IMG/VR virus record: IMGVR_UViG_3300034072_000381
Coordinates: 1-34,964 of that record
Strand: one strand, 5' to 3'
Length of the DNA stretch: 34,964 nt
Source of the DNA: a virus
In this document: positions 23,986 through 34,964 of the stretch, in pieces
Numbering within the stretch: position 1 is the first letter of the stretch
Layout of the letters: every line of letters begins with the position of its first letter
Notes under the pieces: model-generated
What the model saw: only the letters and a program-made list of their open reading frames with translations
What the model was told of the DNA's origin: nothing
The model's database searches: none
Made by a program: the position numbers and the translations under genes

Positions 23986-24139
23986 GCCTGACGTATGCGC
24001 CCGCTGCGTGTTTCTATGCCCTTGGAACGGCGAGGGCTATGGGTGTAGCCACCCTGAGATTCGCGGCCTCCTAGAGGGCATCGTGCGGTGTCAGGGGCGT
24101 TATTTCATCGAGAAAGGCTTGCGATTTCTCGAGCGATAA
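23951..24139 (+). CDS. Cys-rich small protein, possible zinc finger
   Basis: A 62-residue protein overlapping the phosphoesterase gene by 35 bases. Cys16, Cys19, Cys23, Cys32 and Cys47 (CARCVFLC, GYGCSHP, VRCQG) suggest a small zinc-binding fold like the short Cys4 proteins common in phages. It is the last rightward gene; its end overlaps the convergent gene at 24105. The start is uncertain because the ATG lies within the previous gene without a clear ribosome binding site. Confidence 0.6.
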   Translation: MESPGSEDKWSKPDVCARCVFLCPWNGEGYGCSHPEIRGLLEGIVRCQGRYFIEKGLRFLER

Positions 24140-24281
24140 TATCGGCCTCAACGTCAAGCCCATGCGCTCGCATTCGATACAGGATCTCAGCGATGGTCGG
24201 CTCGCGTTTCTGACCATATCCCCAAGGGAGCTTTTTAAGCTCGCGTTCCCATGCACCAGGTTCTGATTGATTATCGATCAC
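24105..24281 (-). CDS. Small unknown phage protein (end of leftward operon)
   Basis: A 58-residue protein I do not recognise: an N-terminal polar segment with GAWERELKKLPWGYGQKREP, then a helical end (TIAEILYRMRAHGLDVEADIIAREIASLSR). I chose GTG 24281 because GGAGGGAGGG sits 7 bases upstream and the GTG overlaps the stop of the micro-gene before it (GGTGA), a coupled arrangement. The frame stays open upstream, so a longer form from ATG 24374 (89 aa) is the alternative, but that start has only a distant GGAGG. Confidence 0.62.
   Translation of the reverse strand: MIDNQSEPGAWERELKKLPWGYGQKREPTIAEILYRMRAHGLDVEADIIAREIASLSR
24109..24131. terminator. Hairpin between converging operons
   Basis: A perfect inverted repeat, CGAGAAA / TTTCTCG with a 9-base loop, lies exactly where the rightward late and leftward early operons collide. 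It has no T-run on either side, so it is at best a weak or factor-dependent bidirectional terminator. Confidence 0.3.
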
Positions 24282-24385
24282 CAGTAATCCCTCCCTCCTC
24301 GAGAACATCTCACATTCGGAGCAGGCACCCAGCGCCATTCGTAAGCTCGCCAGGCGCGATATCGCTCTAACCATCGTCGGATCAT
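24278..24385 (-). CDS. Micro-gene, 35 aa, Trp/Arg-rich
   Basis: A 35-residue frame beginning in an ATGA overlap with the stop of the gene upstream, with GGAGG 4 bases before it, and ending in a GTGA overlap with the gene downstream. The product is very basic and aromatic (MIRRWLERYRAWRAYEWRW at the start). The coupling at both ends is what one expects of a real phage micro-gene. The competing explanation is a single longer gene in the other frame from 24374. Confidence 0.5.
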   Translation of the reverse strand: MIRRWLERYRAWRAYEWRWVPAPNVRCSRGGRDYW

Positions 24386-24948
24386 AAGGCCTCCACACTG
24401 TAGCTATCGCTCGGTGATCTCCACTCTTTGTCAGGTTTTGGGTCGATCCAGCTAGGATCTGACCATAGCAATCGGTTATTCGGGTAGGCAATCAGCTGCC
24501 CTTTGCCCGCTCCTTTGGCGCTATCAAGGGCGATAACGTGATGGTTTTTGTGCTGATCGCTGACCTCTGACCACCCATCCTTGGCCCAATCAATTGTGAA
24601 AAGGTAAGTGCCTTTGCGGATCTGACCGTCACGGCCTAGAGCGCTGACTCTGTGGTTACGTAAGAACGCGAAGGCGTGTACCTGGGCGTAGTAGCCATAA
24701 CTATCCCACCAGGCGCAGAGATCGACTGAGAGCGGCTCACAGGGCGCTATACAGAGGGCGTGTATTGGGATGCGAGCCCATTGCGCGCCCGATGCCAGCA
24801 TGATTTGGAACATAGGCACTCGAGCAGGCTCTGCGCGAAACCCGAATATCGTCGCCTCGGTGTATTCGCCCTGGCCTTTTGCCTGGTCATAGAGGAACTC
24901 ATTGCGAACATGGCACTCGACGTAAGGGGTGTCGCAGAGGAAGTTCAT
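24382..24948 (-). CDS. Conserved phage protein of unknown function
   Basis: A 188-residue protein. The order FRAEPARVPMFQIMLASGAQWARIPIHALC, then CAWWDSYGYYAQVHAFAFLRNHRV, then TYLFTIDWAKDG, SDQHKNHHVIALD and IAYPNNRLLWSDPSW recurs in a family of marine and freshwater phage proteins whose function is not established. ATG 24948 has AGGAGG 9 bases upstream; a GTG two codons earlier would be too close to that site. It overlaps its upstream neighbour by 4 bases in the leftward early operon. Confidence 0.82.
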   Translation of the reverse strand: MNFLCDTPYVECHVRNEFLYDQAKGQGEYTEATIFGFRAEPARVPMFQIMLASGAQWARIPIHALCIAPCEPLSVDLCAWWDSYGYYAQVHAFAFLRNHRVSALGRDGQIRKGTYLFTIDWAKDGWSEVSDQHKNHHVIALDSAKGAGKGQLIAYPNNRLLWSDPSWIDPKPDKEWRSPSDSYSVEAL

Positions 24949-25232
24949 ACCCACCCCTCCTTAACCAGCTGCGCGATCGTGCGCGCCATGCCCTCGAAAT
25001 GCGCGAGGCGTAACTCATCGCGGGATAGGCCGCTCTTATTCGTGCGACCGTCGACCTCATCGTGGCACGCAGAGCACGCCCAGGCGCCGAGCAGATCGGG
25101 TGCTTTGGTTCCCATGCCAGAGATCCCTGCAAGGCGTATATGAGCCAATACAACGGTTTGGCTATTAAAGTTACAAACGCCAGGAATGCGTACTAAGCAC
25201 CCGCGATCTTTAGCGAATTTGCGGTAATTCAC
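24945..25232 (-). CDS. YbcO-like DUF1364 nuclease
   Basis: A 95-residue protein matching the DUF1364 pattern known from E. coli prophage YbcO: KFAKDRGCLVRIPGVCNFNSQTVVLAH, a Gly-rich loop GISGMGTKAPDLLGAWAC, then SACHDEVDGRT and LRLAHFEGMARTI. The Cys16, Cys21, His32, Cys53 and His57 arrangement fits an HNH-type metal-binding nuclease fold that probably acts in phage recombination or repair. The start is GTG in a GTGA overlap with the upstream gene, with GGAG 9 bases before. Confidence 0.88.
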   Translation of the reverse strand: MNYRKFAKDRGCLVRIPGVCNFNSQTVVLAHIRLAGISGMGTKAPDLLGAWACSACHDEVDGRTNKSGLSRDELRLAHFEGMARTIAQLVKEGWV

Positions 25233-25441
25233 CCAAACATCTCCGCTTGCCCGCGCAGAATGTAACGTGCATAACGCTTCCCGTTACGCTTTTCGATAAC
25301 CGTCTCAATATCCAACCCTTCGCGGCGTAGCTCAACAATTCTCGCAGCAAGCCTAAAGCACCCATACTCATTCAATGCATCTAAAGGTGTAATCACGCGG
25401 CGCGTGATCAAGTGAGATCGAATGGCGTCGGTTTGTGTCAT
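25229..25441 (-). CDS. Small helix-turn-helix protein (HTH_39-like)
   Basis: A 70-residue protein of the pattern QTDAIRSHLITRRVITPLDALNEYGCFRLAARIVELRREGLDI, a compact winged helix found in many phages between recombination genes (HTH_39 family). A short wing and C-terminal YILRGQAEMF follow. It probably binds DNA, but no regulatory target is evident. ATG 25441 lies in an ATGA overlap with the upstream gene and has AGAGGA at 7 bases. Confidence 0.82.
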   Translation of the reverse strand: MTQTDAIRSHLITRRVITPLDALNEYGCFRLAARIVELRREGLDIETVIEKRNGKRYARYILRGQAEMFG

Positions 25442-25755
25442 GCTCCCATCCTCTTATTGGCTGATACGGTTCTGTAAACATCTAACACGATTTTTTCGGT
25501 GTCGCGTTTGTTGTGGAGCTTCCAATACCCCTGCAATGCCGCGACGTAAATTTCATGCGCCTCTCTGGTATTGGCGTGCTGCATCGCGAGTGCCTGGCGC
25601 TCGGCCACCGTTCCCTCAGTATGCGTAAACACGGCCTCGCGGGTGCGTTTCCAAGCGATCTCTGCCCGCTCCATTTCGCCGCGAGCTTCGGCGCACGAAT
25701 CGTCGGTTTCAACGAGAAACCGTAATGCTTTCTCTGCACGTTCTTCGCTAATCAC
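25438..25755 (-). CDS. Helical unknown phage protein
   Basis: A 105-residue mostly helical protein. The core GTVAERQALAMQHANTREAHEIYVAALQGYWKLHNKRDTEKIVLDVYRTVSANKR resembles small helical proteins linked to phage recombination genes (GTVAER..A, then LEVYRS.NA). The start is GTG 25755: AAGGAGA lies 8 bases upstream and the overlap with the glycosyltransferase gene is then 8 bases, whereas the longer ATG 25794 form has no such site. Function unknown. Confidence 0.75.
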   Translation of the reverse strand: MISEERAEKALRFLVETDDSCAEARGEMERAEIAWKRTREAVFTHTEGTVAERQALAMQHANTREAHEIYVAALQGYWKLHNKRDTEKIVLDVYRTVSANKRMGA

Positions 25756-26452
25756 CTTCGCGTTCTCCTTGCAAGACTCGCACTGCAGCTGCATTCCATT
25801 CGCTGCTGTACTCGACGTTTTGCCATCGCGGGAACCAAGGGCCGCCTCGCGTGAAATGCACCGCTACAGGGTCATTTTCATCAGCTGGCGTATACCATCC
25901 TTCCAGGTAGTTAAATTTCACCGGCAGCGAGCCGATCCTTGACGGGTCAGGTATCCACTTAAACTGATGCAAGTACATTCCACTTTGGATGTTGACGATG
26001 TCGGGGGTAAGCGCTTTGCTCTCCTCGGCCTCGCAGTTCCACAGAATGCAGCTTGACCAATTCTTTTTGGGATATTGGTGTTGCTGCTGATCGTCCATTT
26101 TGGTTTCTTCAAGTGGCGTGTAGTCATGTTTCACGACCATCACCGCTTTGTTGAGATCGGTGTATTCCAAGATCTCGGAGATATCTTTCCGAAACATAAA
26201 GTCGCAATCGACGAACAGCGCCCAGCCCTTATGCCCCGCCAAGTGCGGCACCAGAAATCGCGTAAAGCTAAACTCGGTGCTCGATAGCGGATCTCGGTCT
26301 CGCGTATATAACCCGAGCCGACGTAGCTCAGACTGCACGATAGGCCTGATATCAAGCGGTATCGTCGAATGCTCAAGCAGGGTATGCCTGGCGACCTTGT
26401 ACGCGATCTCCTCGCGAGGATCGTAGCCGATGAAAATTCTGAAACCGTTCAT
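25748..26452 (-). CDS. Glycosyltransferase, GT-A fold with DxD
   Basis: A 234-residue protein with the start FRIFIGYDPREEIAYKVARHTLLEHS, the segment DPLSSTEFSFTRFLVP, and the metal- and sugar-nucleotide-binding ALFVDCDFMF (Asp82, Asp84), then KHDYTP, KNWSS and LTPDIVNIQSG; this matches a conserved GT8-like family seen in phages and bacteria. It would transfer a sugar from a nucleotide sugar to an unknown acceptor. It is embedded in the early recombination operon (ERF, exonuclease), which is odd for a surface-modifying enzyme and leaves DNA, protein or cell-surface targets open. Confidence 0.88.
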   Translation of the reverse strand: MNGFRIFIGYDPREEIAYKVARHTLLEHSTIPLDIRPIVQSELRRLGLYTRDRDPLSSTEFSFTRFLVPHLAGHKGWALFVDCDFMFRKDISEILEYTDLNKAVMVVKHDYTPLEETKMDDQQQHQYPKKNWSSCILWNCEAEESKALTPDIVNIQSGMYLHQFKWIPDPSRIGSLPVKFNYLEGWYTPADENDPVAVHFTRGGPWFPRWQNVEYSSEWNAAAVRVLQGEREGD

Positions 26453-26454
26453 GG

Positions 26455-26688
26455 TTAAAACGGCAGATCGTCATCGAACTCGACGTCGACCTTGGCCTCG
26501 GGTTTAGGCTTCGGCTGGGTCACGCTCAAGCTCATAAACGGCTTGCCGGCCTTGGACTTTTTCATACGTCCAAAGATCGTCCACTCACGCCCCTCGACGT
26601 TGAGCGAGCCGATGTAATCAGGGCTCTTATCGGAACGCTTCTCGCCGGCTCGGAATAAAACACCTGTATTCGTATTGTCGTAGGTCAC
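26455..26688 (-). CDS. Small DUF736-like protein with SSB-type acidic tip
   Basis: A 77-residue protein starting with GTG in an overlap with the exonuclease gene. The body (NTGVLFRAGEKRSDKSPDYIGSLNVEGREWTIFGRMKKSKAGKPFMSLSVTQ) has the strand order of small OB-like DUF736 proteins. It ends in FDDDLPF, the same kind of acidic Asp-rich, Phe-ending tip that bacterial single-stranded-DNA-binding proteins use to recruit partner enzymes. Adjacent exonuclease and ERF genes fit an ssDNA-handling role. That it binds ssDNA is inference. Confidence 0.82.
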   Translation of the reverse strand: MTYDNTNTGVLFRAGEKRSDKSPDYIGSLNVEGREWTIFGRMKKSKAGKPFMSLSVTQPKPKPEAKVDVEFDDDLPF

Positions 26689-27308
26689 AGTTTCACCTCA
26701 TTCAATTTGTTAACTTTGTCTTCCAACTCGCCCAAAAACATAGACACCTCGGCCTCGATCTCGGCAATGCGCGTGTCATCGCGCTCGACACGAATGATCA
26801 ACAGCTGCAAGTGCTCAGGCAGCCTTGGATCGTAGGCCGCAAAATCGCACCATTTCGCATTTGTCACAGCCATTTGGAATTGCATCTGGGCCAAGTATCG
26901 AGCGGGAATCGTGCGAGTGAGAATCCACTCAAGTATCGTGTTGGTCTGTGGGCATTTGATCTCGACTAGGCCCTCGCCGACGATGCCATCAGGAGACGCC
27001 CCAGCGCCTTGTATCGTCGGGTGGTCAATAAACCCCACCTCCTCGACAAGCTCGCCTGTACGGGCCGCATATGCAGCCCTAGCGTGCGGTTCCTGCTCCG
27101 TACCCCACTCCATTGCGGCGTTGCTGAACGACTCGGTAGGTTTACCCGTCAGTCGCTCGACGATCAGCTGGGCCATGTAGTTATCGCGACTTGCTGAGTA
27201 GCCTGATCGGGTTTTGGCGATGACATCAGCAACGCGGCTGGCGGTGACTTTGCCGAGGCGGGACTGTAGCCATTCCTCGCGGTTAGCTTGTTGGTAGGAC
27301 TGCATCAT
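26685..27308 (-). CDS. YqaJ / lambda-exonuclease-like recombination nuclease
   Basis: A 207-residue nuclease of the PD-(D/E)XK YqaJ group. Visible motifs are EEWLQSRLGKVTASRV near the N terminus, WGTEQEPHARAAY (68-80), GASPDGIV (Asp107) and VEIKCP (Glu116, Lys118), then YLAQMQFQMAV. It would degrade one strand of DNA ends to expose ssDNA for the ERF protein encoded just upstream. I chose ATG 27308, 7 bases after GGAGG; a GTG one codon earlier and an ATG one codon later are alternatives. Confidence 0.92.
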   Translation of the reverse strand: MMQSYQQANREEWLQSRLGKVTASRVADVIAKTRSGYSASRDNYMAQLIVERLTGKPTESFSNAAMEWGTEQEPHARAAYAARTGELVEEVGFIDHPTIQGAGASPDGIVGEGLVEIKCPQTNTILEWILTRTIPARYLAQMQFQMAVTNAKWCDFAAYDPRLPEHLQLLIIRVERDDTRIAEIEAEVSMFLGELEDKVNKLNEVKL

Positions 27309-27868
27309 CACGCTGCCTCCGGTGGGGGTGTCAGTTCTTTCTTGCGGGCGGTGAACACAGCCATATGCGCGAGCCGTTGCTCATTGCTTAGGCGCTTAAA
27401 CAACTTGGTGAGCTCCTCGACCGTTTGTGCGTTGTTAATCAATGCAACTACATCAGGGTCAATTTCTGTTTTAGGCTTGTGACGCGCCTGGGCGGCCTCG
27501 GCGTCATCGTCGATCTGGGCTAGGCCTACGATCGCAGCCAAGGCGTATCGCCTGGCATAGGTAATCCCAGAGCCTTGCGCCTGGGGGCTGTCATCCTTCG
27601 TCAGCACAGGCGTGATCGACTTAATCCATTCGCCGCTCGAGTGGGCAAGCGTCGTAATCAGCACAGGCTTATCGCCAATGATGTCGATCGCTTGGATGAC
27701 GGCGAGGCCGTTCTCCGACAGCTGGGTTCGACAGGCGTCCCAACATGAGGCAAGGTCGGCATATTTGCTTTTGAAAAACGGGTTGCTGCTGTCTTTCAGG
27801 GCACCCGTGATCGCGCCTTGTGCTTTGGATAATGCGGCGGCTAAGGCGCCGATGGTGTCACTCTGCAT
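27308..27868 (-). CDS. erf: ERF-family single-strand annealing protein
   Basis: A 186-residue protein with the ERF hallmark NPFFKSKYADLASCWD (28-43) and later HSSGEWI, PVLTKDDSPQAQGSGITYARRYALAAIVGLAQIDDDAE. ERF proteins form rings that anneal complementary single strands during phage recombination and circularisation. Gene order (ERF, nuclease, ssDNA-tip protein) is a standard recombination cassette. AAGGAA is 7 bases before the ATG. The C-terminal 50 residues are a charged helical tail. Confidence 0.93.
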   Translation of the reverse strand: MQSDTIGALAAALSKAQGAITGALKDSSNPFFKSKYADLASCWDACRTQLSENGLAVIQAIDIIGDKPVLITTLAHSSGEWIKSITPVLTKDDSPQAQGSGITYARRYALAAIVGLAQIDDDAEAAQARHKPKTEIDPDVVALINNAQTVEELTKLFKRLSNEQRLAHMAVFTARKKELTPPPEAA

Positions 27869-27980
27869 AGGTATATTCCTTCAGGTTAGATAATTGTTGG
27901 TTGCAGGCTTCGATGCGTTCGAGCTCTTCGCGCTCCTGCATCTCGAGGTCGATTTGGTGCCACCAGGTGTCATCGTCCAT
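27858..27980 (-). CDS. Micro-gene, 40 aa, acidic helix
   Basis: A 40-residue frame with an excellent ribosome binding site (GGAGGTGATCG before ATG 27980), ending 11 bases inside the ERF gene. The product is acidic and mostly helical, starting MDDDTWWHQIDLEMQEREEL. The strong start signal and tight packing between its neighbours make it a likely real gene. No function is recognised. Confidence 0.65.
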   Translation of the reverse strand: MDDDTWWHQIDLEMQEREELERIEACNQQLSNLKEYTYAE

Positions 27981-28080
27981 CGATCACCTCCGCGCAGCTG
28001 TGGCCGTCACAGGGCTCGACAAGGCCCGCTAATAGGTAGATCGCGATCAGGCCGATCACTGCCCAATGCTCACGCTTCAT
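27970..28080 (-). CDS. Micro-gene, 36 aa, single membrane segment
   Basis: A 36-residue frame starting in an overlap with the gene upstream and ending 11 bases inside the next micro-gene. It has a hydrophobic stretch WAVIGLIAIYLLAGLV (6-21) after a positive MKREH, then two Cys residues in EPCDGHSCAE. This looks like a small inner-membrane protein with a periplasmic, possibly disulfide-bonded tail. AAGGGG lies 6 bases before the ATG. Early membrane micro-proteins often act on the host or in exclusion; that is speculation here. Confidence 0.6.
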   Translation of the reverse strand: MKREHWAVIGLIAIYLLAGLVEPCDGHSCAEVIDGR

Positions 28081-28345
28081 CGCAATCCCCTTCCCAGCGC
28101 AGTGCGTCGATGTACTCTTCAGCCTTGCAAACGAGCTCATCGTAGAGGCCTGGCGTCATCTCGCTGCCCCATAGGTACAAGTCAGTATTGAGCGCGGTGT
28201 AATCGCGTAGGCGGGGATTGTCGCCTTTGTGGTAAACCCCGATGACGGTGGCTTTCTCGATCTCTACGCCTTCGTCAACCTGTTCGTATTCGACGGTGAC
28301 CTCGACCAGGGTGCCGTAGAGCCAGATTTGTGTATCGAATTCCAT
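28070..28345 (-). CDS. Early unknown protein
   Basis: A 91-residue acidic protein (MEFDTQIWLYGTLVEVTVEYEQVDEGVEIEKATVIGVYHKGD, then helical). The first half has a strand pattern like small phage proteins of unknown function. ATG 28345 follows GAGAGGAAG and one of the three repeated promoter-operator-leader modules, so the gene is very probably early and repressor-controlled. The much longer open frame upstream would run through that promoter and is not used. Confidence 0.83.
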   Translation of the reverse strand: MEFDTQIWLYGTLVEVTVEYEQVDEGVEIEKATVIGVYHKGDNPRLRDYTALNTDLYLWGSEMTPGLYDELVCKAEEYIDALRWEGDCDEA

Positions 28346-28417
28346 GTTGCTTCCTCTCTCTGGATGCGTTGTTTCTGTCAACGTGGGTAAATTTACCACA
28401 GTAAACCGTGCTGTCAA
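28346..28417 (-). promoter_or_regulatory. Leftward promoter-operator-leader module 1
   Basis: On the minus strand TTGACA (28417-28412), 16 bases, TAAATT (28395-28390). The spacer and -10 are covered by the palindrome TTTAC-TGTG-GTAAA (28405-28392). A further half-site makes GGTAAATTTACC (28397-28386). A leader follows with GTTGACAGAAACAAC and CCAGAGAGAGG, the ribosome binding site. The same arrangement is found at modules 2 and 3. Confidence 0.75.
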
Positions 28418-28998
28418 GCGTAGCTCGACCAATACTGTTTTCCGTAGACCGGAGCGCCCGCGATAACCTGGATGGGTTTCTCGAGGTACGCAGTGGCCGA
28501 TTGGTGAATCTTCACCTTTGGCACGTTGCCGGTCATGCTCACGCGGCGCTTGATCGGCTCGCCGATGAACACGCCTGGCAGCGGCGCACACTCACCGGCC
28601 ATAAAGCTCTGCTCCTGGCGCTCTTGGGCAATCTCGCGAAGCTCGACCATCTGACCTTTGACGCTGACCACCTGGTAATACTCGACATTGGTCTGCTCCC
28701 AACCCCAGGAGGATCTAAACACCTCGCCGCCTTTAAGGCCGTGCGGCGCAAACCGCTGGGCGCGTCGAGCCTTCACCGCGGCCTTGTGAGCCTCGAGGCC
28801 CGCGACCGTTTCCTCGATGAGCTTGCTCAGTGATTCTTGGCTTTTGAATTTGTAGTGCCAGGCTGGGTTCGCGCTTTTGCCTGAAAACGCGATGCCGTAC
28901 AACCGGCCCTCTTTTTCCTGCTGGTAAACCACAAACTCTGTGGCTTCGTGGATGTAGCTCAGAACGTAGCCTGGCGGGATGTATCGTACTTTTTTCAC
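28414..28998 (-). CDS. Early unknown protein
   Basis: A 194-residue protein starting with GTG 28998 after AGAGAGGTAAGACA and module 2. Residues 1-60 resemble a small domain (KKVRYIPPGYVLSYIHEATEFVVYQQEKEGRLYGIAFSGKSANPAWHYKF) followed by a helical linker, a segment FRSSWGWEQTNVEYYQVVSVKGQMVELREIA, and a mixed end with KRRVSMTGNVPKVKI. The middle looks like a short SH3-like barrel found in phage proteins of unknown role. An earlier in-frame ATG lies inside the repeated leader and is rejected. Confidence 0.82.
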   Translation of the reverse strand: MKKVRYIPPGYVLSYIHEATEFVVYQQEKEGRLYGIAFSGKSANPAWHYKFKSQESLSKLIEETVAGLEAHKAAVKARRAQRFAPHGLKGGEVFRSSWGWEQTNVEYYQVVSVKGQMVELREIAQERQEQSFMAGECAPLPGVFIGEPIKRRVSMTGNVPKVKIHQSATAYLEKPIQVIAGAPVYGKQYWSSYA

Positions 28999-29066
28999 TG
29001 TCTTACCTCTCTCTGGTGTTGTTTCTCTCAACGACACTAGTTTACCAAAGTAAACCTATATGTCAA
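28999..29066 (-). promoter_or_regulatory. Leftward promoter-operator-leader module 2
   Basis: On the minus strand TTGACA (29066-29061), 16 bases, TAAACT (29044-29039). The perfect palindrome GTTTAC-TTTG-GTAAAC fills 29055-29040 and includes most of the -10. The leader has GTTGAGAGAAACAAC, a potential GTTG/CAAC mini-hairpin, and CCAGAGAGAGG as ribosome binding site. Confidence 0.78.
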
Positions 29067-29380
29067 GCAGCCTGGGGAAAATTTAGATATCCAAATTGCC
29101 TTATAAATTTTTCCAATTTCTCTTTGGTCATGCTGGGCCAGTGGTGGCCGATTTCTTCAAAAAAGACATACATCACCACCGCGGCCTCGCAGTCTTCTTC
29201 CCACCAGGTTGGTTTCTCGCAGTATTGGCTGCCGATCTCGAGCGCCCAGGCGGGCAGCTGGGCCTGGCGTTCTGGTGACAACCAGATGCCAGCGTGGCCC
29301 GCGGTAATGATCATGTAAATGCCAGGGGCAAATTCTTTTTGGTAGTTGACTCGACCCCAAGGGCTGCTTTGAATTTTCAT
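29063..29380 (-). CDS. DUF7007-like protein
   Basis: A 105-residue protein with the pattern SSPWGRVNYQKEFAPGIYMIITAGHAGIWLSPERQAQLPAW, then WWEEDCEAAVVMYVFFEE, as in the DUF7007 domain (SPWG..Q....APGI..V.T..HGG..L...R....P, then YEEDC.W..). The domain is common in phages and plasmids and has no known activity. ATG 29380 follows the AGAGAGGTT ribosome binding site of module 3. It is the first gene of the leftward early block and its 3' end overlaps the -35 of module 2 by four bases. Confidence 0.87.
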   Translation of the reverse strand: MKIQSSPWGRVNYQKEFAPGIYMIITAGHAGIWLSPERQAQLPAWALEIGSQYCEKPTWWEEDCEAAVVMYVFFEEIGHHWPSMTKEKLEKFIRQFGYLNFPQAA

Positions 29381-29451
29381 GTTAGTAACCTCTCTCTGGT
29401 TCGTTGTTTCTCTCAACGGGATCAGTTTACCACAGTAAAAAACCCTGTCAA
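29381..29451 (-). promoter_or_regulatory. Leftward promoter-operator-leader module 3
   Basis: On the minus strand TTGACA (29451-29446), 16 bases, TAAACT (29429-29424). The palindrome TTTAC-TGTG-GTAAA lies at 29439-29426. The leader repeats GTTGAGAGAAACAAC and CCAGAGAGAGG. It drives the first leftward gene and is back-to-back with the regulator promoter, whose -35 starts 6 bases away. Confidence 0.78.
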
Positions 29452-29456
29452 CGCAC

Positions 29457-29485
29457 TTGCGTAAAATAATTTACATGGGTAAAGT
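29457..29485 (+). promoter_or_regulatory. Rightward regulator promoter with fourth operator
   Basis: TTGCGT (29457-29462), 17 bases, TAAAGT (29480-29485). The operator TTTAC-ATGG-GTAAA (29470-29483) sits in the spacer and supplies the -10 from its distal half, exactly as in the three leftward modules. An extra half-site GTAAA at 29461-29465 forms GTAAA-ATAA-TTTAC with the first. Binding here would block the regulator's own promoter. Confidence 0.6.
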
Positions 29486-29495
29486 TCGCGCCACT

Positions 29496-29663
29496 ATGAC
29501 ACCACAAACTTTGCTCAATCATTTTGGTTCCCAGGCAGCCATTGCCAGGGCGTTTAACGTGACCGATGCCGCGGTGCTGAAGTGGATCAGAGCGGGCGTA
29601 TTACCGCCTCTCAGGGTCTACCAGGCGAAAGAAATGCTGAAAGGCGTGAAGCGCCGCAGATGA
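29496..29663 (+). CDS. Cro-like DNA-binding regulator
   Basis: A 55-residue protein of the lambda-Cro class. The helix-turn-helix is visible in TLLNHFGSQAAIARAFNVTDAAVLKWIRAGVLPPLRVYQ: turn helix QAAIARAF, recognition helix DAAVLKWI. It should bind the palindromes in the four promoters beside it. I chose ATG 29496 because the predicted -10 is at 29480-29485 and transcription would start near 29492. The in-frame ATG 29475 and TTG 29457 lie within the promoter. No Shine-Dalgarno precedes 29496, so a near-leaderless message is implied. It is the only clear transcription factor beside the early promoters. Confidence 0.82.
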   Translation: MTPQTLLNHFGSQAAIARAFNVTDAAVLKWIRAGVLPPLRVYQAKEMLKGVKRRR

Positions 29664-29696
29664 AAAAAAAGCCCCATAACAGCGTTACAAGGCTTT
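29661..29696 (-). terminator. Leftward intrinsic terminator
   Basis: Read leftward, a hairpin AAAGCC ... GGCTTT with an inner stem TAAC-GCT-GTTA is followed by eight T residues, a textbook rho-independent terminator for minus-strand transcription. It lies just after the regulator stop codon. It would end a leftward RNA starting around 30056 or stop read-through from the methyltransferase gene. Confidence 0.7.
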
Positions 29697-30056
29697 CTAG
29701 AACATCAAACCCCCTTTCGGGGGTTGACGGGGCCAAGGGGATGCCCTACGCTCGGGATGCTCATCGAGGTTCAGTGAAGATACCCTTTCGGGAAAAGGTT
29801 GTCAAATTTCACTCGACCTCCAGCTCGGGATTTCTGGTCGGGGAAACAACGCACAGAAACTCCTTAAACCTAGATCGGGGCGGTGGGCCTCTAGGCACGC
29901 AGCGTGTAGCGAGGAAGCGTGAACCACACCAGGGCAACCTGGCAAAAGTAGCTCGCAGCAGGATGGCTCCGACAGTCATCAAATCCTGTACGACATCCCA
30001 TAGGCGTATTCCGTCTGGATGCCGTGCAGGACTCACCAACAGTCATCCCCATTCAA
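29664..30056 (-). ncRNA. Candidate structured non-coding RNA
   Basis: About 395 bases with no convincing gene but dense perfect helices. In plus coordinates: 29737-29743 with 30044-30050 (7 bp) and, nested inside, 29754-29759 with 29994-29999 (6 bp). Local stems are 29766-29770 with 29816-29820 and 29773-29778 with 29808-29813; 29831-29836 with 29854-29859; 29869-29873 with 29891-29895; 29909-29913 with 29952-29956; 29929-29933 with 29938-29942; and 29959-29964 with 29983-29988. Read leftward, two hairpins carry GAAA tetraloops (CCCGAAAGGG, CCCCCGAAAGGGGG), and the RNA would end at a T8 terminator, so I favour the minus strand; the plus strand has a GCAA tetraloop and is not excluded. I do not recognise the family. 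Confidence 0.5.
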
Positions 30057-30064
30057 ACCATAAT
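30036..30064 (+). promoter_or_regulatory. Weak candidate promoter for the 30088 operon
   Basis: CATAAT at 30059-30064 (5/6 to the -10 consensus), with a poor -35 (CCAACA) 17 bases upstream. The overlapping minus-strand GATAAT at 30068-30063 could serve the leftward RNA, so the A/T-rich patch 30059-30075 may be a divergent promoter region. Support is weak. Confidence 0.3.
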
Positions 30065-30087
30065 TATCCATAACACTAGGGGTATCT

Positions 30088-30624
30088 ATGTACGAGTTAG
30101 ATCAGGAAGCATGGGATCGATGGAAAGCGTTTCGTAAAGCCATTAAGAAACCTATTCGTGAAGTCAGCGAAAACGCTGCCAAACTCAAATTGAGTCGGTT
30201 TGGGGCTGACCAAGATGCGGTAGTGCAACAATCCATTGCGAACGGCTGGCAAGGGCTGTTTCCGTTAAAAACCCAAAAAGGCGAAAAGCCTGTCAAATCT
30301 GAAAAGCAAATCGAGGCCGATCGGCAAGCGATGGCTGACGCAAACGCCCGATGCGAACGATACTGGGATAACCTCGAACCAACCGCGATCAACCGCCTAA
30401 AGCTCTGTGAAGCTCTCTGGGCGCGTTACACGGTGAACCCTGACCCTGATACCCCAGAGCGCCTGAAGTGGCTGCGAGATGTGATCGCGCTGCATTTACG
30501 CGAGGCCAATGCGAAGGATGTGCTTTGCGAGCCTGGGCTCTCGACGATGTTGTTTGTTTTTTTCGGTGAACGAGGCTTTAATCGATTAAAGGAGCGAGCG
30601 CGTGCAGAAACCGTTAACGGATGA
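30088..30624 (+). CDS. Replication-associated phage protein (putative)
   Basis: A 178-residue protein. The segment AWDRWKAFRKAIKKPI ... DQDAVVQQSIANGWQGLFPL (about 8-62) is a motif that recurs at the end of phage replication initiation or primosome-type proteins. Here it stands at the N terminus, followed by a charged linker and a helical C-terminal domain (RLKLCEALWARYT, LKWLRDVIALHLREANAKDVL). It leads a short rightward operon with AGGGG 5 bases before the ATG. As no polymerase or helicase is encoded, it is the best candidate for recruiting host replication, but this is inference. Confidence 0.75.
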   Translation: MYELDQEAWDRWKAFRKAIKKPIREVSENAAKLKLSRFGADQDAVVQQSIANGWQGLFPLKTQKGEKPVKSEKQIEADRQAMADANARCERYWDNLEPTAINRLKLCEALWARYTVNPDPDTPERLKWLRDVIALHLREANAKDVLCEPGLSTMLFVFFGERGFNRLKERARAETVNG

Positions 30625-30757
30625 GGAGATCGCGAAGCTCTGGCCAGGCAGTACGACCTGGGCGGCCTTGTTTGAGTTTGCAAGACGAATTGAGAAAGCG
30701 CATGGCATCAGTGAAGAAACCAAGGAAGTGCAGCGAGTGCAAGAGGCTATTCGCTGA
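30602..30757 (+). CDS. Conserved 51-aa phage micro-protein
   Basis: A 51-residue gene starting with GTG 30602, 7 bases after GGAG, and overlapping the preceding gene by 23 bases. The sequence VQKPLTDEEIAKLW, then TTWAALFEFARRIEKAHGI, matches a short pattern (LTDEEI..LW....... A..FAR.IE.AHGI) found beside replication and nuclease genes of many phages. Function unknown. Confidence 0.78.
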   Translation: MQKPLTDEEIAKLWPGSTTWAALFEFARRIEKAHGISEETKEVQRVQEAIR

Positions 30758-30866
30758 CCCGTCGACTTTTTATGCACATAAAAGCGCCTACGGGTGTAAA
30801 TCTGACGAGGTGCTGAAGTCGCAGGGTTATGTGCTCTCGAAGCTCGGGTGGACGCGACCGCGATGA
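30702..30866 (+). CDS. Small C2HC zinc-finger-like protein
   Basis: A 54-residue protein starting at ATG 30702 inside the previous gene in another frame. It has Cys10-x2-Cys13 and then a His...Cys pair (His25, Cys31) in FYAHKSAYGC, the spacing of a single C2HC/C2H2 finger (KCSECKRLFADPSTFYAHK). It is basic and probably binds nucleic acid. It ends in an ATGA overlap with the nuclease gene, so it is translationally coupled to it. Confidence 0.72.
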   Translation: MASVKKPRKCSECKRLFADPSTFYAHKSAYGCKSDEVLKSQGYVLSKLGWTRPR

Positions 30867-31186
30867 GATTCGCCGCTCGCCGAGACCTGAACGACAAGGA
30901 GATCTCAGAGGCCGTGAGGGCGGCAGGCTTTACGCTCCTCGACTTTGGGCGCGCTGGCGGTGGGTTACCCGACAAGCTGGCATTGCGAAAGCTACCCGAT
31001 GGCACCTATTTCACCTGTTGGCTTGAAATCAAAAGCGCCAAGGGCAAGCTCAAGGCCAATCAGTTACTCGCCAGAGAGATCTGGAAACCCCGCGGCGAAT
31101 GGCTCGAGGCCCGCGATCCGCAGGAAACCGTGCGGGAACTTTTTAGGTTGTGGCAGTCGAAGATTCGACCGGAGTTTTCGCGCTGA
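30863..31186 (+). CDS. PD-(D/E)XK (VRR-NUC-like) nuclease
   Basis: A 107-residue nuclease of the minimal VRR-NUC / resolvase-like type. RRDLNDKEISEAVRAAGFTLLDF is followed by GGGLPDKLALRK (catalytic Asp), LEIKSAKGK (Glu-x-Lys), KANQLLAREIWKPRG (conserved Gln) and a final helix. Such enzymes cut branched or flap DNA and fit a role in phage recombination. The start overlaps the previous stop (ATGA). The last 44 bases overlap the convergent methyltransferase gene. Confidence 0.86.
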   Translation: MRFAARRDLNDKEISEAVRAAGFTLLDFGRAGGGLPDKLALRKLPDGTYFTCWLEIKSAKGKLKANQLLAREIWKPRGEWLEARDPQETVRELFRLWQSKIRPEFSR

Positions 31187-31691
31187 CGAGCACCCAGAAC
31201 CCGCGGCCCATGAGGTTATGCGTCTGCAGCTGGTGGATCTCGAAGTATCGGCAGAGCAGCGGCAGCCACCAAGAGGCCGGTTGCTGGATCAAGTGAGCAT
31301 TGCGACCGTCGGGTAGGGTTTTCCCTGCTGGCCCCGTATGTACGCTAAAAAACCCGATGCGGGTAATGCGCGCTAAGTCCTCGAGCACGGCCTCGAGATG
31401 CTCGGGCTCGATATGCTCAAGCACATCGATGCAAGCGACGAGATCGGCAGACCTAGGCGACCCGTATTCAACGAACGCAGGATCATAGGGGTAATACTCG
31501 AATTCGAGCCCGCTTGATTGCAGGGTTTTGCCGAGGTTGCACTTGCCCGCCCCGTAATCTGAGAGCGACTTGATGTTGTTCTCGCGCATGACCTTGGCGA
31601 CGAGTGGGGCGAAAGCGAGAGACGCCACGCCATACGCAGGGTTTTTGTGTAGCTCGATTTGTTGCTTGCGATAGCTTTCGGTGATGGTCAT
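31143..31691 (-). CDS. Class I SAM-dependent methyltransferase
   Basis: A 182-residue Rossmann methyltransferase. Motif I is SLSDYGAGKCNLGK (42-55), with YYPYDPAF as the acidic strand-2 region and DLVACIDVLEHIEPEHL as the post-I/motif IV block. The end, GRNAHLIQQPASWWLPLLCRYFEI, is typical of a phage subgroup of unknown substrate. There is no DPPY or NPPY motif, so a DNA adenine or cytosine methylase is unlikely. ATG 31691 follows AGGAAA by 8 bases. It is alone on the minus strand between two rightward units. Confidence 0.85.
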   Translation of the reverse strand: MTITESYRKQQIELHKNPAYGVASLAFAPLVAKVMRENNIKSLSDYGAGKCNLGKTLQSSGLEFEYYPYDPAFVEYGSPRSADLVACIDVLEHIEPEHLEAVLEDLARITRIGFFSVHTGPAGKTLPDGRNAHLIQQPASWWLPLLCRYFEIHQLQTHNLMGRGFWVLVSAKTPVESSTATT

Positions 31692-32095: not shown

Positions 32096-33177
32096 AACGC
32101 GAGCAGGTCGCGGCGGCACTGCAGTACCTGGGAGACCGCGCCCAATTGCGCGATCGATTCCAGCGCGCTACGACGCTTGATCAACCCACCGACCAGGACG
32201 CTTTCGATGTGGCCGCAGAAATCGGCGCAGGCTTTGTGCCTGGCGTGGGTCAAGTGCAGGCCGGTCGAGACTTCGAGCGCAGTCGCCGCCAGGGCGATCG
32301 GCTTGGAATGTTGCTCGCAGGGTTTGGCATGGTGCCGGTGGTGGGCGGCGCGGCAAAGGCTGTCCAAAAGGCAGGCAAAGCGATCGATAAGGCGATCGAA
32401 GCCAGGATGTTTCAGCGTGTCGATAACGACTTCGACAATTTGATTGAGGAATACAACACGCTTAAAGACGCAAAAGGCGGTCGAGTGTTAAATACGGACA
32501 CGGCTCGGGAGTTATCCCCAGATTACATTGCCGACCGCACCAAATCTGCTGACGTACATGAGCCCTCCAGCGCGTTCATCAAGCGTTTGTATTCCAAGCG
32601 CCTCGCCGAACCAACCCCGCCTGGCAAGGTGCCAGTGGTGGTATTTACCGCAGGCGGCACAGGCGCAGGGAAATCATCAGGCCTTGAACTGCTCGAACAA
32701 CGCAACCCCGCTTTCGCTCAGGCTGAATTGGTGTACGACACCAACATGAACAAATTTAGCTCGGCCAAAGACAAAATCGACCAGGCACTCGAGTCAGGCC
32801 GCGAGGTCAAAATCCTCTACACCTACCGAGATCCTGCCGAATCATTACGCCAGGGCGCGCTGACGCGAGCGATGGGCCAGGAAAAGAAATACGGCACAGG
32901 CCGCACTGTCCCGCTCGCCGAACACGGCAATACTCATGTCGGCGCCCGCAAAACAATGGATCAGCTGCGCGAACACTACAAGGACACGCCAGGCATCGAA
33001 TTCCAGGCGATCGACAACAGCAGAGGCCGCGGCATGGCCCAGGCCGTTGAATTTGAAGATTTACCGCAGTTAAGCGATAATGCACAACTGAGAGGAAAAT
33101 TAAGAGATGAACTCGAAGCAGCCTACCAAGCCGGTGAGATTAGCGAATCCACCTACCGAGGCTTTAAAGACTATTAA
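32092..33177 (+). CDS. Zeta-toxin-like P-loop kinase with hydrophobic N-domain
   Basis: A 361-residue two-part protein. Residues of about 36-100 hold two Gly/Val-rich hydrophobic segments (FDVAAEIGAGFVPGVGQV; GMLLAGFGMVPVVGGAAKAV), seen in phage virion proteins. Residues of about 155-361 are a kinase domain with the Walker A loop GGTGAGKS (188-195), then YDTNMNK, LYTYRDPAESLRQGALTRA and HGNTHVGARKT, the order found in Zeta toxins, which phosphorylate UDP-N-acetylglucosamine. No antitoxin of Epsilon type is adjacent. It lies in the late block before terminase, so it may be a virion or ejected protein. Whether it is toxic is unknown. Confidence 0.83.
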   Translation: MKREQVAAALQYLGDRAQLRDRFQRATTLDQPTDQDAFDVAAEIGAGFVPGVGQVQAGRDFERSRRQGDRLGMLLAGFGMVPVVGGAAKAVQKAGKAIDKAIEARMFQRVDNDFDNLIEEYNTLKDAKGGRVLNTDTARELSPDYIADRTKSADVHEPSSAFIKRLYSKRLAEPTPPGKVPVVVFTAGGTGAGKSSGLELLEQRNPAFAQAELVYDTNMNKFSSAKDKIDQALESGREVKILYTYRDPAESLRQGALTRAMGQEKKYGTGRTVPLAEHGNTHVGARKTMDQLREHYKDTPGIEFQAIDNSRGRGMAQAVEFEDLPQLSDNAQLRGKLRDELEAAYQAGEISESTYRGFKDY

Positions 33178-33278: not shown

Positions 33279-33419
33279 ATGGCGGCAGCGGCTCACAACC
33301 CGCAATTTGCTAAACGCATGGGCATCCCGCAGACCGTCGCCAAAGAGTTTAACCAGGCCGACAAGGGCAAAAGACTTGCCGCGGCCATGAAGATGATGCA
33401 TAAACGCAACAATGCCTGA
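33279..33419 (+). CDS. Micro-gene, 46 aa, basic, before small terminase
   Basis: A 46-residue basic protein (MAAAAHNPQFAKRMGIPQTV, then AKEFNQADKGKRLAAAMKM). The pattern A...P..AKR.GIP..VA.EF..AD.GK recurs in short podovirus proteins just upstream of terminase; the role is not known. It starts 13 bases after the previous stop with GAGAA upstream and overlaps the small terminase by 8 bases. Confidence 0.75.
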   Translation: MAAAAHNPQFAKRMGIPQTVAKEFNQADKGKRLAAAMKMMHKRNNA

Positions 33420-33714
33420 AGGACGTTTTAAAAAGGGACAGAAAGGCGGCCCAGGGCGACCGAAAGGTTTGCCTAATAAGGCTACTCTGGCCGCCAGAGA
33501 AGCCATTGCAGCGTTTGTAGACAACAACGCAGACCGTCTCCAAGGGTGGCTAGATCAGATCGCAGAGGAAAAAGGGCCACAGGCTGCTTTCGATTGCTTT
33601 AGCACTCTGCTTGAGTATCACGTACCGAAGATGAGCCGCACCGAGCTCACAGGGCAAGATGGTGCGCCTCTGGTAGTGGAGATCACGCACTTTGCGGATA
33701 AGGCTTCCAAATAA
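33412..33714 (+). CDS. terS: Terminase small subunit (putative)
   Basis: A 100-residue protein with a basic Gly/Pro/Arg DNA-contact segment FKKGQKGGPGRPKGLPNKAT, an AT-hook-like GRP in a DUF5681-type start, followed by helices (LAAREAIAAFVDNNADRLQGWLDQIAEEKGPQAAFDCFSTLLEYHVPKMSRTEL). This is the common small-terminase or packaging-initiation arrangement directly upstream of a large terminase. It would recognise the phage DNA for packaging. It overlaps the large subunit start by 23 bases. Confidence 0.82.
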   Translation: MPEGRFKKGQKGGPGRPKGLPNKATLAAREAIAAFVDNNADRLQGWLDQIAEEKGPQAAFDCFSTLLEYHVPKMSRTELTGQDGAPLVVEITHFADKASK

Positions 33715-34964
33715 CTGGAACCCCCGCCCCTACCAATTGGGGGTGTGGAAGTACCTCGAGACGGGCGGCACGCTCGCTGAACTGGTTTGGCATCGTCGCT
33801 CGGGTAAGGATGAAGTCGCTCTACACTGGGCAGCGTGCGCGGCCTTTAAGCGTGTCGCGAACTATTGGCATATGCTTCCTGAGTACGCCCAAGCACGCAA
33901 AGCGATCTGGGAAGCGGTCAACCCGCATAGTGGCAAGCGCCGCATCGATGAGGCTTTCCCGCCAGAACTCCGATCGAATACTCGCGATCAGGAAATGCAG
34001 ATCGTGTTTAAGAACGGCTCGACCTGGCAGGTAGTAGGCTCAGATAGCTACAACCGCCTAGTCGGCTCGACGCCTGCAGGGGTGGTGTATTCGGAATGGG
34101 CGCTGACCAACCCCGCAGCGAGAGGCTACTTGCGCCCGATCTTGGCTGAGAACAACGGCTGGCAGATCTTCATCACGACGCCTCGCTCGCGAAACCATGC
34201 GTACATGAGCTTCAAGGCGGCAGAGAAGAACCCTGACGCCTACGCAGAAAAGCTCACGGCGATCGACACGGGCGTATTCACGCCAGAGCGGCTAGAAGAA
34301 GAACGCCTCGCCTATATCGAGAGCTTTGGCCAGGACGAAGGCGAGAGCCTATTCGCCCAGGAATATCTCTGCAGTTGGGATGCGGCGATACTCGGTAGCT
34401 TCTACGGCCATGAGATCCGCAAGGCTGAAGAGCAGGGCCGCATCACGCAAGTGCCGTATGACGAACACGCACCCGTGCACGTATCGTTTGATATCGGGTA
34501 CACCGATGACACCTCGATGTGGTTCTACCAGGTGATTGGCGGCGAGATCCATGTCATCGATTTCTACTCAGCGTCGGGCCTCTCAACGCCCGCGGTGGTC
34601 GAGATCCTGCAGGGCAAGCCTTACCGATACGGCAAGTTCCAGCTGCCGCATGACGCGAGAGCTAAGACCTTTGCGAGCGGCGGGAAGTCAGTCATCGAGC
34701 AGATGGCCGCGCAACTCGGGATCGGCAACATGATGATCGTGCCCAACCTCTCGGTGCAGGATGGCATCCAAGCGGTGCGCCAGATGCTGCCTCGAGTGTG
34801 GTTCGATGCCGAAAAGTGCGAGCAGGGCATTGAGGCGTTGCGTCAGTATCAGCGGGAGTGGGATGACGATAAGAAAGCATTTCGCTCGACACCGAGACAC
34901 GATTGGTGTAGTCATCCCGCAGATGCGTTTAGAATGATGGCGGTGGCCTGGCGCGCAGAGCCTA
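33692..34964 (+). CDS. terL: Terminase large subunit, N-terminal part (continues at base 1)
   Basis: The ATPase-nuclease motor that packages DNA; 462 aa when joined across the contig ends. The ATP site is HRRSGKD (34-40), a deviant Walker A typical of podovirus terminases. Walker B is GVVYSEW (130-136, Glu135), and the coupling motif is ITTPRSRNHA. The nuclease acidic residues are in SFDIGYTDD, IDFYS, PHDARAK and HPADAF (after the join). There is no ATG; TTG 33692 is preceded by GGAG at 10 bases and gives MRIRLPNNWNPRPYQ, a normal terminase N terminus. The frame is open from 33677 onward and has no stop before the window ends. Confidence 0.92.
   Translation, partial: MRIRLPNNWNPRPYQLGVWKYLETGGTLAELVWHRRSGKDEVALHWAACAAFKRVANYWHMLPEYAQARKAIWEAVNPHSGKRRIDEAFPPELRSNTRDQEMQIVFKNGSTWQVVGSDSYNRLVGSTPAGVVYSEWALTNPAARGYLRPILAENNGWQIFITTPRSRNHAYMSFKAAEKNPDAYAEKLTAIDTGVFTPERLEEERLAYIESFGQDEGESLFAQEYLCSWDAAILGSFYGHEIRKAEEQGRITQVPYDEHAPVHVSFDIGYTDDTSMWFYQVIGGEIHVIDFYSASGLSTPAVVEILQGKPYRYGKFQLPHDARAKTFASGGKSVIEQMAAQLGIGNMMIVPNLSVQDGIQAVRQMLPRVWFDAEKCEQGIEALRQYQREWDDDKKAFRSTPRHDWCSHPADAFRMMAVAWRAEP
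34838..34964. repeat. Right copy of 127-bp terminal direct repeat
   Basis: Exact copy of bases 1-127. Removing one copy gives a circular unit of 34,837 bp. The length 127 matches a common maximum k-mer size of short-read assemblers, which supports the assembly-overlap reading. Confidence 0.97.

Follow-up and report, generated by a model that had tools for sequence, protein, structure and literature searches.

A candidate four-site Cro regulon in the early region of an uncultured phage

Introduction

The record of an uncultured virus, 34,964 bases long and analysed here at its full length (the window), carries one palindrome, TTTAC-N4-GTAAA, in the promoters of three successive leftward genes and in that of a cro-like gene. 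Which protein, if any, reads this palindrome, and what would it do to the four promoters? A first-pass annotation had proposed a four-site regulon under the cro-like gene. The record is classed linear; both of its ends (1-243 and 33412-34964) look by eye like terminase genes, so the record could represent a circularly permuted genome that is nearly complete.

We conclude, with a probability of roughly 0.85, that the palindrome is the operator of a P22_Cro-family protein, which would shut four promoters: its own and three nested leftward copies. We also lean, less firmly, toward an early switch made of three exchangeable parts, namely a Cro helix and operator that are swapped jointly, a promoter-operator-leader cassette that is copied, and an uncatalogued double-pseudoknot RNA class downstream of cro.

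Results

The palindrome and its promoters

The whole 34,964-base record holds four exact copies of TTTAC-N4-GTAAA, at 28392, 29041, 29426 and 29470, and none elsewhere. The placement given by the first-pass annotation, in three leftward promoters and the promoter of the regulator, was thereby borne out (Table 1). With one mismatch allowed, the palindrome matched five times in the record; 100 dinucleotide shuffles averaged 0.42 matches and never exceeded 3. Of 200 first-order simulations, only two produced TTTAC arms with a four-base gap, one copy each. Since any 5-base arm could have drawn attention, the broader count matters too: some 5-base arm reached four copies in 3 of the 200 simulations. 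One-mismatch palindromes also lie off promoters, at 33060 in the window, 11135 in G003, 15361 in G004 and 14123 in G005; the window and G003 sites are probably coding sequence, lying by position close to the 3′ end of homologous genes.

Every copy overlaps the -10 box of a sigma-70-like promoter, and in all four promoters the TAAA of the -10 comes from the right arm of the palindrome. The layout is one exact site per promoter, without the three-operator clusters of lambda type (oR, oL). The leftward promoters are as first described, TTGACA-16-TAAAYT, and the gene starts behind them (ATG at 29380, GTG at 28998, ATG at 28345) were correctly placed. The cro promoter had been assigned the same geometry, which holds in part: the palindrome meets the -10 alike, but the promoter is weaker, with TTGCGT, a 17-base spacer and TAAAGT. 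A promoter scan of positions 24300-31300 returned 4 sites, against 4.3 ± 1.9 in shuffles. Consensus match alone therefore proves nothing, and our argument rests on conservation instead.

The window has extra half-sites as well, GTAAA at 29461 and GGTAAATTTACC at module 1, from which graded binding had been suggested. The former is absent from the relatives L037 and L052; the latter is replaced by GGTAAACTTACT in L036, GGTAAACTTATC in L037 and GGTAAATTTACA in L052. We dropped the suggestion, since these half-sites vary or vanish.

Table 1. Positions of promoters, operators, leaders and genes in the early region of the window
Feature	Position	Strand	Details
O-like gene	starts 30088		phrog_678; structured RNA between cro and this gene
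OOP-like RNA promoter	29805..29777	-	TTGACA-17-TATCTT
OOP-like RNA terminator hairpin	29698..29666	-	ends at cro stop
cro-like gene	29496..29663	+	55 aa, P22_Cro family; recognition helix T23-D-A-A-V-L-K-W30
cro promoter	29457..29485	+	TTGCGT-17-TAAAGT
Putative operator O-cro	29470..29483	+	TTTACATGGGTAAA; over -10 of cro promoter
Leftward promoter P3	29424..29451	-	TTGACA-16-TAAACT; TG one base ahead of -10
Putative operator O3	29426..29439	-	in P3 (gene A)
Leader copy 3	29403..29417	-	GTTGAGAGAAACAAC; predicted 5′ end of mRNA
Gene A	29063..29380	-	105 aa, DUF7007; Pfam PF22653, 2.1e-19
Leftward promoter P2	29039..29066	-	TTGACA-16-TAAACT; TG one base ahead of -10
Putative operator O2	29041..29054	-	in P2 (gene B)
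Leader copy 2	29018..29032	-	GTTGAGAGAAACAAC
Gene B	28414..28998	-	194 aa, GTG start; phrog_37844 (no assigned function), 3.9e-25
Leftward promoter P1	28390..28417	-	TTGACA-16-TAAATT; TG one base ahead of -10
Putative operator O1	28392..28405	-	in P1 (gene C and recombination genes)
Leader copy 1	28368..28382	-	GTTGACAGAAACAAC; same letters in L048 under another operator
Gene C	28070..28345	-	91 aa
Erf-like annealing protein, YqaJ/RecE-like exonuclease, SSB-like protein	26455..27868	-	gaps -1, -4

P1-P3 stand at the head of a leftward array of 13 genes: A, B, C and ten more. The gaps are 64 bases (A-B) and 68 bases (B-C) at the inner promoters, and -47 to +2 elsewhere. Positions 24300-31300 contain five terminator-like sites, against 6.7 in shuffles; the sole one on the minus strand (29698-29666) lies beyond cro, and the scan found none between P3, P2 and P1. 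Because the gaps are small and no minus-strand terminator-like site intervenes, we read the promoters as nested in one array. The earlier suggestion of separate promoters instead of one long operon thus falls. Gene A is 74% identical in L036 and 69% in L037, and gene B 51-70% across L036, L037 and L052; family searches (Pfam, PHROG) gave no match for gene C.

The record has one P22_Cro gene. Its 55-aa product matches Pfam P22_Cro at 1.9e-10 (40.8 bits, cut-off 30.2; 39.7 bits in the genome search), as well as the profiles of P22 Cro (1rzs, 9e-12) and N15 Cro (2hin, 1.8e-10), and a palindromic operator adjoins cro, a feature shared with this family. No cI or cB partner was found beside cro. Neither an HTH_3 repressor (PF01381) nor an integrase (PF00589) matched in the record, from which a small part of the genome may be missing, and the CI-type repressor that opposes Cro in a lambda-type switch was not found there.

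The predicted cro transcript start lies 0-5 bases ahead of the ATG at 29496, and similarly close in L037 and L052, so a leaderless or nearly leaderless cro mRNA is predicted. This parallels the leaderless cro mRNA of the telomere phage PY54, as reported in excerpts of PMC4488713. In PY54 and phiKO2, also a telomere phage, Cro binds a single site and does not repress its own gene, according to excerpts of PMC4488713 and PMC4997575, whereas the cro promoter of the window carries a putative operator. Autorepression is therefore not to be presumed from family membership.

Conservation and exchange of cro and operator

We collected relatives through the gene A protein, the Cro protein and DNA patterns. 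All four sites recur in five of five relatives with this Cro type (L035, L036, L037, L052, L057), with 18 of 20 copies exact and 2 carrying one mismatch. L035, L036 and L037 have four exact sites each; L052 and L057 have three, with one mismatch in the cro site. These relatives are not independent: L035 and the window hardly differ, and L052 resembles L057. More generally, all four sites are present in every record whose Cro is at least 70% identical. A control pattern read backwards, with one mismatch allowed, matched these five relatives 1, 0, 0, 3 and 1 times. The P3 and cro sites are 44 bp apart in all five sequences compared (window, L036, L037, L052, L057), and the five Cro rows with the palindrome share the helix TDAAVLKW without change, L047 having another.

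Polymerase does not need the left arm, TTTAC, which is kept while the remaining spacer diverges: against L037, 20 of 20 left-arm bases are retained and 19 of 40 in the rest of the spacer (Fisher 2.4e-5), and against L052 the counts are 19 of 20 and 16 of 40 (Fisher 2.7e-5).

TTTAC-N4-GTAAA is absent, even with one mismatch, from three of three contigs with a different Cro (L046, L047, L048; 46% identity over 43 residues). Gene C and the genes that follow it have relatives in these contigs, at up to 98% identity (L048), and each contig has one leftward promoter, which lacks the palindrome. Genes A and B gave no match in them, L046 being a 1.3-kb piece in this gene comparison. Under another operator, L048 repeats the window letter for letter in the leader and in the first bases of gene C. 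As far as these contigs tell, cro and operator changed together while leader and gene C stayed. The proposed regulon under the P22_Cro-family gene is thus supported: the sites are kept together with the helix, upstream of orthologous genes in relatives with the same Cro type, and are gone where cro was replaced.

All five DUF7007 relatives scanned (L038-L042) lack the palindrome, and L038, L039 and L040 have no convincing promoter repeats. Among 11 stretches that matched the DNA pattern, five (L051, L053, L054, L055, L056) carry a promoter-like word and no match to the window Cro; we treated them as chance or as another system.

Recognition helix and operator type

We compared 102 non-redundant cro upstream regions, drawn from 80 loci kept of 209, plus 6 loci, plus 76 loci; four entries were skipped as too short or with an unreadable helix. 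V-S-Q-W helices (n = 38) go with TTAAG-N4-CTTAA in 25 regions, with TTTAG-N4-CTAAA in 9 and with none of the patterns in 4. V-L-K-W helices (n = 17) go with TTTAC-N4-GTAAA in 5 regions and with none in 12. Among the other helices (n = 47) a single one, V-S-H-W, has TTTAG-N4-CTAAA. An S-Q or S-H helix with a C-type operator, or an L-K helix with a G-type operator, was seen in 0 of the 102 regions. We attach no probability to these counts: the helix classes and the three operator patterns were defined once the data had been inspected, and the loci are related by descent. Across the 102 regions, recognition helix and operator change together.

Eleven of the 12 V-L-K-W regions without an exact palindrome belong to one more distant group (among L067 and L073-L088), in which half-sites are arranged differently; the remaining one, L143, matches weakly and comes from an archaeal MAG. 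In the distant group, the 11 non-redundant TDAAVLKWK regions contain 51 GGTAAA/TTTACC half-sites against 1.8 expected, and the 2 TDAAVLKWR regions contain 10 against 0.33, compared with 2 against 1.9 in 18 regions with the P22-type helix SDAAVSQWK. In one further small class (L068, helix SQAAVAQWG), GTAAA/TTTAC words number 4 against 0.2 expected, an unexplained excess.

The half-site bases are predicted by helix residues in the rules of Hall, LeFevre and Cordes (2005), as cited in an excerpt of PMC4997575. Our comparison follows the same idea, here in uncultured phages, and ties L28-K29 versus S-Q to the inner base of the half-site.

Several loci illustrate variants. In L067 and L073-L088, with helix TDAAVLKW, GGTAAA half-sites are spaced otherwise, for example TTTACCCCTGCCGGGGGTAAA, and direct repeats occur. 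L174, L212, L148 and L188 have the helices TKGAVSQW, TKGAISQW and TKGAVSHW with GTTTAG-N4-CTAAAC in the same place of the leftward promoter. L209 has a mixed site, TTTAC-ATGG-CTAAA, in its cro promoter and TTTAG-N4-CTAAA in the divergent promoter.

The repeated leader

The first reading overlooked that the repeated unit includes a leader, GTTGASAGAAACAAC..CAGAGAGAGG, which persists through operator changes. The leftward modules are 87% identical over about 50 bases. A strict form of the leader, GTTGABASAMACAAC (IUPAC), occurs in the leftward leader nearest cro in 18 of 100 upstream regions, under six helix classes. A leader hairpin was considered and rejected: folding reached z -0.57, -0.89 and -1.51 against shuffles, and the GTTG/CAAC stem is broken in L037 P3 and in L052.

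At least three copies of one operator near cro were found in 4 of 64 sequences (window, L036, L037, L052), which all belong to the window's clade. Two copies occur in L174 and in L212; the second leftward copy of L174, whose operator is a different one, lies about 670 bp away. The window's clade reads as one in which the promoter-operator-leader cassette was copied to new genes.

RNA beside cro

A conserved, predicted structured RNA with two pseudoknot helices lies downstream of cro, with its core at 29825-29983 (+) and an extension to about 30031. RNAalifold on six sequences gave 60 pairs, 11 of them with double changes, and single-sequence folds only mildly outdo shuffles, whichever strand is folded (z -2.2, -2.4). 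Searched against 46 sources at E up to 1, a model of the 159-base core matched 14 times; the poorest hit, L113 (E 0.29), was left out of the count. An alignment of 23 matches, 19 of them distinct, had two pseudoknot helices added by eye. In it, 98.3% of 838 cells are paired and 28 of 46 pairs show changes on both sides, the alignment having been fitted to part of the structure but not to the two added pseudoknot helices; a slid-partner control gave 29-39% paired and 0-6 pairs with double changes.

Rfam returned no match at E up to 0.5 in 24000-31500 and, with a limit of E 5, three chance-level matches only on 29680-30090. Nothing in the literature searched was recognised as this RNA. A pattern from its 3′ half occurs in at least 120 stretches in IMG/VR. 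Among the matches listed, a P22_Cro-like gene stands upstream on the same strand in 60 of 76 loci examined, and in all 56 of the examined listed loci that have at least 1.5 kb upstream. An O-like gene follows downstream in 33 of the 76 listed loci, of which 61 have at least 800 bases there, with the window protein as sole query. The RNA model matched all 70 viral loci given, four of them cut by a contig end, and had no match in the phage collection. Its only genome match, L260 (26.7 bits), was set aside, as that stretch looks protein-coding and has no cro or O nearby.

A leftward OOP-like RNA, about 108 bases long and terminating at the cro stop, is predicted within 29805-29659 (-). Its region is 91-96% alike in L036, L047 and L048 and 73-74% in L052 and L057. 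Place and direction are those of lambda OOP, as far as the excerpt of PMC5869508 describes it. The double-pseudoknot RNA perhaps works with or against this small RNA.

A promoter-like site, TTGACG-17-TACGCT at 29724-29752 (+), lies ahead of the structured RNA and may start it; the site is kept with small changes in L036, L037, L047, L052 and L057 (spacer 17-18; TACCTT in L052). In L047 (2617-3663) and L048 (about 1-1690), a gene whose translation resembles a cytosine methyltransferase lies between the other-type Cro and the RNA. With helix class TRAAVQQW, cro and the structured RNA are often 1.2-2.0 kb apart.

Discussion

From these features we infer binding, repression, timing, additive read-through and start sites as follows. 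Host RNA polymerase would fire all four promoters early in infection, leftward transcripts starting at the predicted G of GTTGAGAG. The almost leaderless cro message would give a slowly rising repressor. Meanwhile, transcription of the left array (genes A, B and C, Erf, exonuclease, SSB and others) would draw on one promoter, then two, then all three together; if read-through occurs, genes further left would see more promoters before shut-off. A Cro dimer on TTTAC-N4-GTAAA would cover the spacer and -10 box and so block the promoter, and abundant Cro would close the left array and cro together. The three leftward promoters probably descend from a single copied cassette, each one now standing ahead of a gene; genes A and B are missing with their promoters in L047 and L048.

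Could the palindromes instead be recent copies of one promoter that no protein reads, the left arm merely hitch-hiking? The 87% likeness of the leftward modules does point to one ancestor. Recent copying leaves unexplained, however, why the cro promoter has the palindrome without the leader or the remaining module, why L037 and L052 retain the arms although spacer and flanks have diverged, and why the palindrome vanishes along with this cro type; we regard the idea as very improbable. The leader offers a stronger challenge. Kept in its strict form under six helix classes, at the predicted 5′ end of each message, it might be the main shared signal, acting on RNA through stability or translation, with the operator secondary. 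We judge this unlikely: the GTTG/CAAC stem has no folding advantage over shuffles (z -0.6 to -1.5) and is broken in some relatives, and the palindrome in the cro promoter would be left without an explanation.

Two further alternatives accept the operator and change its reader or its sign. Some other regulator, of host or phage, might read the palindrome, with Cro a coincidental neighbour; HTH_3 (PF01381) is the only other repressor family covered record-wide, and a host protein could serve. We hold this to be quite unlikely, since helix and operator covary even between distant groups; the P22-type helix, for one, goes with TTAAG-N4-CTTAA, again in 5-4-5 layout. We give least credence to activation of the left promoters by Cro. 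Three good promoters under one regulator would suit timed activation, but the site overlaps spacer and -10 in all four promoters, its own included, where a bound dimer would block polymerase, and the left -35 boxes, already at consensus, need no activator. Repression by Cro remains our preferred reading.

How does such a regulon compare with known switches? Lambda has divergent early promoters around cro, a left recombination array and a right O gene. The window shares this plan, with its O-like gene (phrog_678) on the right, and differs in having three left promoters, one operator per promoter and no CI found. With P22 and N15 Cro (Pfam P22_Cro; 1rzs, 2hin, 6on0) it shares the protein family and a palindromic operator adjoining cro, and loci with the P22-type helix show TTAAG-N4-CTTAA in the 5-4-5 layout of the window operator. 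Departures from that family are the spread of four operators across 1.1 kb, with three sitting in copies of a single early promoter, and the lack of a cI or cB partner found beside cro. Nothing in the literature searched was recognised as this palindrome or phage.

By description, the closest analogue is the ESAS/SAS system of cluster K mycobacteriophages (Adephagia, Pixie, TM4), in which a SigA-type promoter, an inverted repeat and a start-associated sequence precede several genes. The inverted-repeat consensus varies between subclusters, and Adephagia has seven ESAS, according to excerpts of PMC3203893 and PMC11373665. The window cassette likewise repeats a promoter, an inverted repeat and a start-associated sequence. 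We see a likeness of function and claim no kinship; the sequences and hosts are different, and the joint change of helix and operator indicates a cognate regulator in the window, whereas PMC11373665, as excerpted, calls that of ESAS unclear. The window would thus provide a counterpart to ESAS with an indicated regulator.

A phage regulon whose regulator, operator and promoter copies can all be read from sequence lends itself to a direct test, a two-residue plus two-base swap. Exchange of cro and operator as a unit, the leader staying behind, suggests a route to heteroimmune relatives. Should the RNA next to cro be confirmed, uncultured phages would have yielded a new class of structured RNA. 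Promoter-like repeats also occur elsewhere: in the left array of L165, a 42-base promoter-like block is repeated ahead of two genes, without the Cro operator.
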